A DNA stretch of 64,000 bases, taken from NCBI RefSeq assembly GCF_003711515.1, contig NW_021167091.1, positions 17,315 to 81,314 on the forward strand, in the 5' to 3' direction. The stretch is from Sodiomyces alkalinus F11. Its lineage: Eukaryota; Ascomycota; Sordariomycetes; Glomerellales; Plectosphaerellaceae. Under the pieces are notes generated by a model that worked only from the letters and a program-made list of their open reading frames with translations, was not told where the DNA came from and ran no database searches. Shown in pieces: positions 3,139 to 43,312 of the stretch; the first letter of the stretch is position 1; each line of letters opens with the position of its first letter. The position numbers and the translations under genes are program-made.

Positions 3139-3345
3139 ATCGAATAGACCATAGTCTTTTCGGTTACGTAATAGGCCGGATTGCCAAGAGTATAATCCGG
3201 GTGGACGCTTACAGAATCTGCACTATATAAAATACGGTGGCAGCGTTTCCCTAACGGTCTGAGACAGTTATAATTATACACAAATGCCTTAATCAATTTT
3301 TGACCTATCTTGTGACGATTTCAACTACGCTTTATCTGACACCTA
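3139..3345 (+). repeat. RIP-mutated copy of the long TIR, right-end orientation
   Basis: The reverse complement of this segment aligns along nearly its whole length with the left TIR at 40596-40831. Shared blocks include TGTATAATTATAACT, the TTAGGGAA/TCAGGGAA core, GCAGATTCTG / GAAGATTCTG, ACCCGGATT and ATTACGTAACCG / GTTACGCAACCG. Differences are largely C-to-T and G-to-A. Its orientation is that of a right terminus, so the element it closed would have lain to the left, toward the Anp1-family gene. No convincing left partner is visible. Confidence 0.65.
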
Positions 3346-38450: not shown

Positions 38451-40086
38451 CGCTTTTTTATAGAAAGGGGTGTATCGAAAGCAGTAACCGTCCGCTCTTC
38501 GGCTACGAGGTCGCGCCTATATAATATAAGGCGTTATTATTTAATATTAAAGCGCTTATACTTAACGGTAAAGCGCTACTACTATAGCCCGACAAATTAC
38601 TTAAGGCGCGACTCTATACTATTCAGCGTCTTATGGATATCTTTCGCTATTTGCTAATAGGCGTTAGCAACTTCCTTAGCGTAACGCCGAGTAATAATAG
38701 CATTCTTAGTAGCCGACCGGTTACTCTTCTACACTGACTAACCCAGAGTCTCCCTAAGGATAACCTAGTATCGGACTACTATAGCCTAATACTATATAGG
38801 ATTAATAAAAGTACAATACAGGATTAATAAAGGGATACAATACTTACGCGGCGACTCTTATTCAGGCTACCTTTCTTAATAGCGATAACTAATACCTTTT
38901 ATAGCTACTCGGTAGTATTCTTACTAATAATAGGAAGCTACTATATATATTAGACTAACTAGACTACGGAGTAGTCTATAATAAGAGGGGCTATAAGAAT
39001 AATAATAAAGATATATAACTTACCACACAGTATTCAAGGCTATTATACTTAGAATAGTAATAGTACTTATTCGTCTGCCCACTATTATCGGCATAGCGGT
39101 ATATCTCGGCCTTAATACTATACGTCTTCTCCTTAAGGTTAATCGCCACTAACTTACTCGTATAATGTATATAAGGGGCCCTTAGATCCCCGCCTATACT
39201 CATATCCACCACCTTCTAGCGGGGAGCGACCGATAAAGCAGCAGTTAATAACAACGTAGCCGTAATAGGAGCAGGAGGCTCTAGTATAGCTAGCTATAGG
39301 GTAAACTGCCTAGCAGACTATAAGGTCAACGCCGTAACCGTGGTCTTAAGCCTCTTAGAGGCCCGCGTTATACGTACGGGAGTAACGACGCGTTTATTAT
39401 TATTATCTTCCTATAAAGGTATAATAACTATACTATATCGCGTGGTTAGCTAGTATTATAGACTGGAGACGGGTCTAGAACCACTTATAAGATAGTAGTT
39501 AGTTAATTAGTTAATTAGTTATTTAATTAAGACTATAAAACCGTTAGTACGCGATGCCTTAGATTGGGTAGAACTTACTAGGCGTAGTATAATCGAAAAA
39601 TTAAGTATAGGAGAGGACGAAAAGAATAGAAAGAGAGAATATCGGCAGGTTACGAGATATCTCTAATAAGCAGTTATATAGGCAACTATTTTTAGTCTAC
39701 CGAAGGAAGCTATACATTCGCGGGGGGAGTAATATCGGGCCCCACGTAATACTAGGAAGGAGAGTCTTTATAGATAAATAAAAAGGATAACCTAGAAGAA
39801 TAAAGGGGCGGATTAGAAAGCCCGGGAAGTAGCTCTTTAGAAACCTATTAGGGTCCCGGATAGAGTAGCCTTTATTAGTGGATTAAAGGGAGGGAATATA
39901 TACCCGAGTTAGAGCCCCGGGGGTTTATATAGGCACTAAGCGGGGACCTATTAGGGTCCCGTTATAGAGAGTTCTAGTTCGGGGTAATAAGGGATTTAGG
40001 AACGGACTCGGGGACTAGGTTCGGAAAAGCCAAGAGGCCGGCACGGATTAGGCGCTCCTAAGGATAAGAGTATCCAGGGGAGGTCG
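38451..40086. repeat. RIP-mutated region, no gene recognised
   Basis: No protein is recognised on either strand. A 74-codon minus-strand frame (39212-38991) has no known motif. There is a direct repeat AGGATTAATAAA...ACAATAC at about 38799-38819 and 38820-38843, and a run of TTAGTTAATTAGTTAATTAG at about 39489-39512. A region at about 39840-39990 contains paired ACCTATTAGGGTCCCG words (39846 and 39949). Confidence 0.45.
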
Positions 40087-40452
40087 CTATATCAGGTGCC
40101 TATAGCAGTGGTCATACTAGTTCCTAAGTATAAACCTATTAGGGTCTAGCTGCTCTTGGTCTAAGACACCTTAAGGTATAAATAAAGCAGTTATCACACA
40201 GTAAACACAATAGCCCCTCGAAGTAAATACAATAGCCCTTAAGGAAGCAAACAAAGCAGTCCTCAAGGAGCAGTAAAGCGTAGTCTTAAGGAGCGGGGGA
40301 GCCTCCCCTTTAAAGAGGGAGGCTAGCGATTAATCTGATTCTTTGGTTACCCCCACGTTTAGTCCCATCACTTTCCCACTCGTGAACCTATTAGGGACCC
40401 CTTTGGTTCCTTACTGCCTCTACCTTTTCACTCTTTACGACTACCTATTTAA
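40087..40452 (+). repeat. Stand-alone copy of the LTR-like repeat (possible solo LTR)
   Basis: It is homologous along its length to 3882-4252 but with more CA/TG retained. No gag follows it. It ends at ...ACGACTACCTATTTAACATT, after which similarity to the first copy stops. No target duplication was identified. Confidence 0.6.
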
Positions 40453-40595
40453 CATTTATCTTATCAAAGGGAAGTCGTTAAAGTAGTTCTTTTAGTACGG
40501 TTATAAAGGGTTCTCGGTTTACTATACTGGCTCCGCTAGTATAATTTTTGAACGGTAGTAGGATTAGTAAAAGGGTATATCGTTACTTAGTAATT

Positions 40596-40831
40596 AAGAC
40601 TCTTAATGATTAGATATAGTGTAATCGGAACGGTCTAAATAGTGTTAAAATTAAAGGTTAAATTGAGTAAGGCAATTATGTATAATTATAACTTTGCAGG
40701 ACCGTCAGGGAACTGCTACCACCATAATCTATATGGTGAAGATTCTGCAGGTGTCTACCCGGATTGCCGAGATTATAATCTTGGTCAAATCCGGTCCGTT
40801 ACGCAACCGTAAAACTACGGTCTGTTCAACA
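40596..40831 (+). repeat. Left terminal inverted repeat
   Basis: The best-conserved core is 40735-40776 (GGTGAAGATTCTGCAGGTGT onward), which matches the reverse complement of about 41967-42013 with only two or three mismatches in about 40 bases. Outward similarity continues through CAGGGAACTGCTACC to the end, and inward through AAATCCGGTCCGTTACGCAA to TCTGTTCAACA. Confidence 0.8.
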
Positions 40832-40955
40832 GGGTCTGAAATTCAAATCTGATTTCAGCTCGTAGCTGCAAACCACTTCTTAACCCGTGCTCGTTACTTC
40901 TACCTGCCTCGGAGTTGAGCCTCTCCCACAACGGCTGCCGTGTATAGTCCGGGGA

Positions 40956-41971
40956 ATGACAGGCCGACGAAGAATTAACGGGCCGTCTGGTCTCACCTTC
41001 TCTCCTGTTTACTTGGAAGATGAGGTTGCCTCTTCACGCAAACAGTCGAGGACAAGGCCGGCGACGACTACAAGGAATCTCTGTTCGTCTTCATCATCCA
41101 ACTCGATATTCCCAGTGCTGACTTTCCGACATCAGTTCTAAAGACCGGCGTTGCCCCCGCTTCCTCCGGATCTGCCTACTTGGAGATTGAAAACCCAGTT
41201 GGGAGTTTTAATGTCAGCACAAGCGGAATGAAACTAGTCTGCACTGTACATGGTCCACGTGCTCTTCCTAAGTCGGCACCATTTTCACCGCACCTCGTTC
41301 TTTCAACCCACGTGAAATACGCTCCTTTCGCAACGCGTCAGAGACGGGGATATCTCCGCGACTTCAGCGAGCAGGACCTCAGTGCCCATCTCGAGTTGGC
41401 ACTACGCGGCGTCATTGTGGGCGAACGGTGGCCCAAAAGCAACCTCGACGTTACCGTCACCGTCCTCGAGGGAGATCACGAGCAAGAGATGTCGCGAATT
41501 CAGGGTCATGGTGATTGGCATATGATGAATGTTTTATCTGGGTGCATTACGGTAGCCTCGGCTGCCATTGCTGATGCAGGCGTGGACTGTGTTGATATGG
41601 TTGCTGGAGGAGTTTCCGCCCTAGTTGCAGGGAGTAACGGACAGTCACCCAGCGTTATGCTAGACCCCGTCGGTTTGGAGACCGAGTCACTCTTGGGCGG
41701 GTGCTGCATCGCTTATATGCCCAACAGGGATGAAATCACTAATCTCTGGGTCAGAGGCCAAAGTTTGTCTTCGGACGTTCTATTGCAGACAAAACTGGTT
41801 CACGGGGCAATCCAAGCATCTAAGGCAAGCCATTGTGTTATCGTAGGAGAGCTAGTTAGTTCTGCTGGAATAACCGAAAACATTAGGACCTGCTCGGGGA
41901 GACCGAAGAATGTTGAACAGGCCGTGAGATACGGTTACGTAACGGGCACGGATTTCACCGAAGGATTGTAA
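40956..41971 (+). CDS. MTR3: Exosome subunit Mtr3 (RNase PH-like), C-terminus replaced by TIR sequence
   Basis: Exons 40956-41082 and 41136-41971 give 320 residues. The 53-bp intron starts GTTCGT, has CTGAC as branch site and ends CATCAG; splicing restores NLFLKTGVAPASSGSAYLEI. The start ATG gives MTGRRRINGP, the usual fungal Mtr3 N-terminus. RNase PH domain 1 is seen as LVCTVHGPRALP, YAPFATRQRRGYLRD and LRGVIVGERWPKSNLDVTVT; domain 2 as MNVLSGCITVASAAIADAG and VDMVAGGVSALV through NRDEITNLWVRG. Mtr3 is a catalytically inactive ring subunit of the RNA exosome in nucleus and cytoplasm. The intron shows that genomic DNA, not a retrocopy, was captured. Codons from about 41912 on (VEQAVRYGYVTGTDFTEGL) and the stop lie in the right TIR, so the native C-terminus is lost. 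Whether this copy is expressed is unknown. Confidence 0.85.
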
Positions 41972-42176
41972 TCTCGGTTATCCGGGTAGACACCTGCAGA
42001 ATCTTCACCATAGAAATTACGTTGGCAGGAGTTCCCTAACAGTGAGGGATTTTAGATAGTTACACACACACAGATCTACAGATTTACAAGCCTTAATTAA
42101 ATCAACGGATTAACTACCCTATTACTATTCTATATTATTTTTTACAGTTACGCTGTATCTAATAATTAAGAGTCTT
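41911..42176 (-). repeat. Right terminal inverted repeat, coding at its inner end
   Basis: Read on the minus strand it repeats the left TIR. The first 61 bases (41911-41971) are simultaneously the 3' end of the MTR3 frame. The (CA)5 run ACACACACACA at about 42062-42072 is not in the left TIR. It abuts the (TTA)n tail of the next LINE copy. Confidence 0.8.
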
Positions 42177-43312
42177 TATTCTTATTATTATTCTTACTCC
42201 GCTATCTTTTTTAATCTATAGGAGACTAATTTAGATTATAGTCCTTCTTAGGTAGCTATAAAGGGGAAAACCCGGGATCCCGGGGAAAAACCTTTATACT
42301 TATCCTTAATTAGAGTAATATCGTTATAAGGCCTATATAGCCCCGGTTCGTCCCCTCTATATATCTAGATTATACTTTTAGGCTAATAGATAACGGGAAG
42401 GGTAGTAGGCTATAGTTTAGGTTAGCCTAGGCCGGGCGTTAGCGAGGGAGCGGGGGGTGAAAAGGGTGCCGCGGCGTCTCGCCGTGTAGCGGCCGCGGTA
42501 CGCTATCTCCGGCCTCCCTATATCCCCGGGGGACTATTCTTATTATCCTTTCTATTTAATTAATAAAGAGAAAAGGTAAGGTAGGCGTTACTGCCTCCTT
42601 TAAGGGGGGGGGGTGCTTACTATATCCGGCGGTAAGTAAGAAGGGCAGGGCTTTACCTATACCCGTAAAAATAGTAGATAGTTAATAAAGGCTAAGGTCC
42701 TTTTCCTTTTCCTTTTTTCTTTCCTATAATGCCTTAGAGCTTATTATAGGGTTTCCTTATTACGTTCCTGTTTACGGTCTTATATACTAACCGTCGCGGT
42801 ATCGTATAACTAATAGCCTCTTCTAGTTCTCTATTTCTAATTTTCCTCTATAATTCTAGTATATGGTTTATAGTTCTAGGTAGCGTTATAGTAGCGCGGG
42901 GTTAACTAGGTAATATATAGAAGTAATAATAATTATAATGCCTGAATCGGCGTACCTATAGGGCCTAGGATACTACGACGCTACGGCGCTTAGCCGCCCC
43001 GGCCGCTATACCGCCTATACCGGAGATCACGATACCTTTAACGATATATACCAATTACTAAGGAAAGAGGCTAAGAAGATCCGCGAAGCGTATAAGTACC
43101 GAGCTAAGGATCTCGATATCACCCGCTAGACCGAAGCGGTATACCTATAGTAGACGTAGGGGGAGCTCCCGCTTTAGTGCCGCGCCGAGTATAATATCAT
43201 AGTAATCTAAGAACCCGGCCTTAACCCTTTTACGAAAAGCCCTGCCTACCCCTCCTAAGGGGTATACCGGCTAATCTAGGGAGGGGGCCGCGCCCTCCTA
43301 TATATCCAAAAA
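42177..43312 (-). mobile_element. Short LINE family B copy with inverted 5' part (twin-priming structure)
   Basis: Positions 42177-42935 match the LINE-3 3' UTR (24975-25740) on the minus strand, starting with the ATT tail. From about 42945 to 43305 the sequence matches LINE-3 36651-37275 but on the plus strand. So the 3' end is joined to an inverted, internally deleted 5' segment. This is the arrangement twin priming yields in mammalian L1 insertions. All of it is RIP-mutated. Confidence 0.75.

Follow-up and report, generated by a model that had tools for sequence, protein, structure and literature searches.

Two LTR retrotransposon ends beside the MTR3 gene of Sodiomyces alkalinus and a probable LTR-encoded C-terminus

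MTR3 and its setting

Sodiomyces alkalinus is a fungus of soda lakes. The DNA analysed here, referred to as the window, is a stretch of 64,000 nucleotides (positions 17315-81314 of contig C13), and searches in its own genome covered 43.4 Mb. The window carries on its plus strand the gene MTR3, whose first exon (40956..41082) opens with the ATG at 40956. It is followed by an intron of 53 nt with GT...AG borders (41083..41135), placed by the splicing of the frame and containing a CTGAC that we take to be a branch-point-like motif, and by a second exon that includes the stop codon (41136..41971). The spliced translation is identical in every letter to the public S. alkalinus F11 protein P0001 ('exoribonuclease', 320 aa), which is probably a model built on this same assembly and not independent of it. 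A domain search of the product detected an RNase_PH domain (PF01138, E 7.9e-15), and its best relative among solved structures is the MTR3 chain of an exosome (8pel_F, E 2.4e-88). The frame ends in ...RTCSGRPKN-VEQAVRYGYVTGTDFTEGL*, with the stop codon at 41969-41971. The AlphaFold model of the protein is poor throughout (mean pLDDT 54), and the low score of residues 293-320 is therefore uninformative.

Analysis of the copy number returned a single locus. Positions 40833-41909, used as a DNA query, had one match in the own genome, the MTR3 locus itself, and the MTR3 orthologue of Verticillium dahliae likewise matched that genome at this locus only. A protein query with exon 2 recovered the locus together with three short and weak matches (E 6e-4, 0.03 and 0.27), all located at copies of the LTR family described below. 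The second, parental MTR3 that had been sought on the strength of an earlier sequence-only reading was thus not found in the assembly by DNA, own-protein or Verticillium orthologue searches. Conservation was then evaluated by aligning 30 proteins taken from the best 120 of 1160 homologues. All 81 columns that are invariant in the other 29 relatives are kept in S. alkalinus MTR3, and two of the columns conserved in at least 95% of the relatives are altered (A52S and K249R). Measured against six outgroups, the gene shows 10-13 unique changes vs 16-23 in S. alcalophilus. Judged by this alignment, MTR3 is under constraint, shows no decay and is not fast-evolving. Since the gene is single-copy, keeps the 81 invariant residues and does not evolve fast, it is best explained as the resident, single and functional gene for this exosome subunit.

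The surroundings of MTR3 are strongly marked by RIP. The composite RIP index (CRI), as defined in PMC7482064, is -0.40 for the MTR3 body vs +1.37 for positions 1-40454 and +1.59 for positions 42177-64000. The body therefore shows no RIP signature and is intact and spliced, much as the sequence-only reading had described it. The two LTRs that flank the gene have intermediate values (left +0.42, right +0.62), and the 5' flank of MTR3 gives +0.57 over about 125 bp, a length too short to judge. A CRI below 0.3 was obtained for 11 of 254 500-bp windows, all of them in two patches, 501-2500 and 40751-42000, the latter being MTR3. Outside the window, ten samples of 1 kb from the stretch of C13 that runs from 1 to 141 kb all exceeded 1.0. 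None of the 143 protein-kinase matches listed in the genome falls on C13, vs about 3 expected by its length, which is a weak sign of low gene density on this contig. The single-copy DNA between the two LTR ends measures 1079 bp (40832..41910; CRI -0.33), and MTR3 is a small single-copy island of 1.08 kb that has stayed unmutated within a desert of RIP-mutated repeats. Repeats may have grown around the gene at an ancestral locus, or a rearrangement may have moved it there.

The window has just one further RIP-poor patch, at 501-2500, which contains an Anp1-family (mannosyltransferase) gene. Two overlapping frames match successive parts of the domain, and this gene therefore probably has an intron.

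The flanking repeats and their family

The inverted repeats reported around MTR3 by the sequence-only reading are real. They pair at 40817-40831 / 41911-41925 (93%), 40701-40780 / 41964-42043 (86%) and 40592-40624 / 42148-42180 (88%), and the left and right repeats match each other with E = 1.1e-28 in the genome search, so that chance similarity is excluded. The right repeat is a 5' LTR of 254 bp (41911..42164, plus strand, in the sense of MTR3), followed by an internal remnant of about 11 bp (42165..42175, plus strand) at the point where another repeat cuts the element, at about 42176. The left repeat is a 5' LTR of about 224 bp (40608..40831, minus strand, pointing away from MTR3) that lies 124 bp from the ATG. 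Its internal region (40455..40607, minus strand) extends the repeat to 40455, farther than had been stated earlier, and another repeat family cuts this element at about 40454. Both window copies start with TGTTGAACA; their far ends read AATC on the left and AATA on the right, vs GACA in the family copies. A 3' partner LTR of either copy was not found within the window, and for these two copies, both of them cut off, patterns of an LTR end plus a target duplication were not above chance.

The repeat that adjoins the cut right element is separate from the LTR, measures 764 bp (42176..42939) and has many near-full-length copies genome-wide. A (TTA)n-like run forms its edge at 42176. Read on the minus strand, where it would have an (AAT)n-like tail, this repeat may be an element of the LINE or SINE type. 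On the other side, at about 40454, the cut left element meets the end of a repeat family that occupies 38500-40454. Copies of this family, about 2 kb long and 74-81% identical, are numerous, and its minus-strand start, TGTTAAATAGG, is perhaps another LTR terminus. An additional LTR copy of the left-arm type is present in the window at 3142-3337 (80% identity to copy L035).

To the window repeats belong at least 93 genome matches (40 of 677 candidates scored), and 32 stretches read around matches yielded 43 recognised copies of the family. Other copies had been expected as TIR elements; the dozens that were found lack MTR3 and carry the hallmarks of LTRs. Alignments start no more than 12 bp from the MTR3-facing boundary in 39 of the 43 copies, and queries extending into MTR3 never matched more than 3 bp beyond this boundary. 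Among 27 of the 43 copies, picked for intact starts and aligned with the two window copies, homology is lost after about 255-278 bp in 11 (3' LTRs and solo LTRs) and continues on the far side, to 315-1200 bp, in 16 (5' LTR and internal DNA). The LTRs of the family have TG...CA termini (TGTCGGACA...CTGACA). A purine run like TTAAGGGGGTG stands directly 5' of five of the eight non-solo short copies (L014b, L019a, L020b, L016 and L027), is degraded before two others (L025b and L036) and is absent before one (L037). Target duplications of 5 bp were scored in eight pairs or solo copies, which are all of subfamily A and were picked after their flanks had been seen; all eight match at 4-5 of 5 positions, vs 1 of 56 non-partner combinations that match at 4 or more of 5. 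On these hallmarks the repeats that flank MTR3 are identified as LTR retrotransposon ends and not as TIRs of one element.

A search for reverse transcriptase listed no PF00078 or PF07727 match inside five paired elements (150 of 978 and 150 of 527 candidates scored). Eight pieces were scanned for domains, five inside paired elements, two outside them (L047, beyond the 5' LTR) and one a SNARE frame of L025. The five stop-to-stop pieces, which come from two paired elements, contained no TE domain. Based on these two results, the LTR family may be non-autonomous. At C6:1481722-1502311 a 5' LTR and a 3' LTR (L023 and L027) lie about 20 kb apart with a perfect common 5-bp flank, GGGTC, which suggests one insertion that was later divided by nested elements.

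Comparison within the family places the two arms beside MTR3 in different subfamilies. The right arm has 79-88% identity to 22 aligned members of subfamily A, and the left arm has 77-80% identity to 5 aligned members of subfamily B. Between left and right the identity is 70% over the LTR columns, made up of 85% in the first 140 columns and 50% beyond. The LTRs of one element are direct repeats, and an inverted pair from different subfamilies therefore represents two insertions. The outer ends of both LTRs face MTR3, so the pair would not have been able to carry the gene as a composite element.

The C-terminal tail and the native stop

The right repeat begins at 41911 and the MTR3 frame ends at 41969-41971, so that 61 coding bases (41911-41971), the first 61 bp of the LTR, account for the last 19 residues and the stop, in agreement with the sequence-only reading. 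The predicted tail, of which YGYVTGTDFTEGL is an example peptide, has three successive parts on the plus strand. The native-type last 20 codons, ASHCVIVGELVSSAGITENI (41825..41884), end in I and have the same length as the S. alcalophilus tail (P0003, 20 aa), which ends in ...KLI. They are followed by the nine codons RTCSGRPKN (41885..41911), which would be former 3' untranslated DNA that became coding when the native stop was lost, and then by the LTR-encoded VEQAVRYGYVTGTDFTEGL and its TAA stop (41912..41971), as given by the spliced frame. When tail length was counted after the conserved ASK in the best 120 of 1160 homologues, S. alkalinus had 48 aa vs 13-29 aa in the other 119 listed; none of the 119 exceeds 29 aa. 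The closest relatives, S. alcalophilus (P0003) and Verticillium (P0004 and P0005), have tails of 20-21 aa.

At the end of the native-type tail the codons AAC ATT AGG contain a TAG at 41884-41886, one base out of frame, and the frame stays open for 28 codons past ENI, to the in-frame stop in the LTR. The native stop, about 25-26 bases ahead of the LTR, seems to have been lost, perhaps through deletion of one base that turned ATN-TAG into ATT-AGG. A single deletion is the simplest route because two substitutions would be required to turn TAG or TGA into AGG. We infer this step from just one base and from the protein relatives. Exonization of the LTR at the 3' end of MTR3 is probable from the frame and the tail comparison.

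RIP was also scored along the right LTR. Of the scorable sites, 0 of 5 are mutated within the first 66 columns of the alignment vs 10 of 30 in the whole LTR, a contrast with a probability of about 0.11 (hypergeometric, computed by hand), and copy L019b likewise has 0 of 6. These counts do not establish that RIP specially spared the coding part of this LTR.

Explanations of the locus

Taken together, the termini, the subfamilies and the family copies make it almost certain in our judgement that two LTR insertions lie beside MTR3 and that no capture occurred. The whole account, in which a resident MTR3 received two LTR insertions, lost its stop and acquired an LTR-encoded tail, is on balance probable. 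Two LTR retrotransposons of different subfamilies would have inserted on either side of MTR3 with their 5' ends facing the gene. The left one, directed away from MTR3, would have landed 124 bp upstream of the ATG, and the right one, which shares the sense of MTR3, about 25 bp past the native stop. Other repeats would then have cut off both elements, and RIP would have degraded the surroundings and spared the single-copy gene. Once the native stop had gone, for which deletion of one base is the simplest route, the frame would run through nine codons of the former 3' flank into the LTR. The LTR would provide 19 residues, a stop and, probably, the transcript's 3' end. The order of these events, the mechanism of the stop loss and the use of LTR signals in the transcript are what we infer.

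Capture of MTR3 by a TIR or Pack-MULE-like transposon, the explanation put forward in the sequence-only reading, would fit the inverted arms and the intron kept in the gene. It is nevertheless highly improbable, given that copies without MTR3 have their conserved terminus on the side that in the window is turned towards MTR3 (alignments start no more than 12 bp from that boundary in 39 of 43), that the family copies show LTR features and 5-bp duplications, that the arms come from two different subfamilies (70% mutual identity, 77-88% to their own) and that a parental MTR3 was not found in the assembly. What survives of that proposal is the chimeric tail, which repeat DNA does supply and which is absent in the 119 other listed homologues; the TIR capture does not. 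A simple flanking pair, which the same reading rejected, comes close to being right, with LTR elements instead of MITEs and with one of them inside the coding frame. That reading would also have been undone by a left repeat that is an inverted duplicate of MTR3's own 3' end, an idea which has nothing in its favour beyond the left/right similarity itself and which is hardly credible against dozens of MTR3-less copies genome-wide and a left arm that groups with subfamily B. Retroposition of MTR3 is ruled out by the presence of the intron.

The remaining alternatives accept the LTR insertions and concern the tail. The right LTR may be confined to the 3' untranslated region if an assembly or base-calling error dropped a base near 41882-41886, in which case the protein would end in ...GITENI and the tail would be an artefact of the gene model. 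The out-of-frame TAG lies exactly where the S. alcalophilus protein ends, both 20-aa tails end in I, and P0001, probably modelled on the same assembly, is not an independent witness. Because the TAG sits one base out of frame, such an error is a serious rival, but with the frame open for 28 codons to the in-frame LTR stop we consider it unlikely. The LTR could also have inserted straight into a longer native coding tail and replaced both C-terminus and stop, which would make a separate stop loss unneeded and the nine extra residues native. Tails in the other 119 homologues listed reach 29 aa, which equals 20 + 9, but the closest relatives (S. alcalophilus P0003, Verticillium P0004 and P0005) have tails of only 20-21 aa, and this course of events appears rather unlikely. 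Two LTR insertions followed by loss of the native stop thus remain the reading that we prefer. An extension of it is domestication of both LTR ends, in which the upstream end would contribute to the MTR3 promoter and the downstream end would serve as C-terminus and terminator. Selection would then shield both from RIP at the gene edge, and a core RNA-exosome gene, bordered by retrotransposon ends, would survive and be expressed within a RIP-mutated, presumably heterochromatic desert. We regard this extension as decidedly improbable.

In 3' exonization of LTR retrotransposons, the LTR supplies C-terminal codons, a stop and probably the transcript end. The MTR3 locus shares with such cases a sense LTR entered in frame at the 3' end of its host, a new stop in the first quarter of the LTR and a tail missing in the listed homologues. 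It differs from them in that RIP is strong in this genome and the host gene, which is single-copy, encodes a core exosome subunit, that a second LTR lies just upstream and that the case is known from sequence. The kind of event is known; the gene and the setting in which it would have happened are unusual. Among TIR transposons, Pack-MULEs are known to capture genes. The locus resembles them in having a gene between inverted repeats and differs from them in its termini, in the subfamily membership of its arms, in the target duplications of the family and in the parental copy, of which none was found. A literature search of partial coverage, which leaves absence unproven, found no published report of this MTR3 locus. 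Verticillium belongs to the same family as Sodiomyces. Its centromeres are described in PMC7482064 as AT-rich, high in CRI, RIP-degraded and dense in LTR elements. The C13 window is like the centromeres described there (PMC7482064) in its dense LTR elements and high CRI; it is unlike them in harbouring a conserved core gene, preserved as an island of 1.08 kb that repeats adjoin directly at either end, and centromere identity is not claimed.

Should reads confirm the tail, MTR3 would be a clean case of a retrotransposon end turned into the C-terminus of a core RNA-exosome subunit, and the locus would serve as a marked natural test case for the sharpness with which RIP and heterochromatin end where repeats directly adjoin a core gene on both sides. 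Should the base near 41882-41886 be an error, there would be nothing unusual about the right repeat, an LTR within the 3' untranslated part of the gene.

A second gene beside this LTR family was observed at L025:5913-7100, where an open frame with a SNARE domain begins about 200 bp past a 3' LTR.
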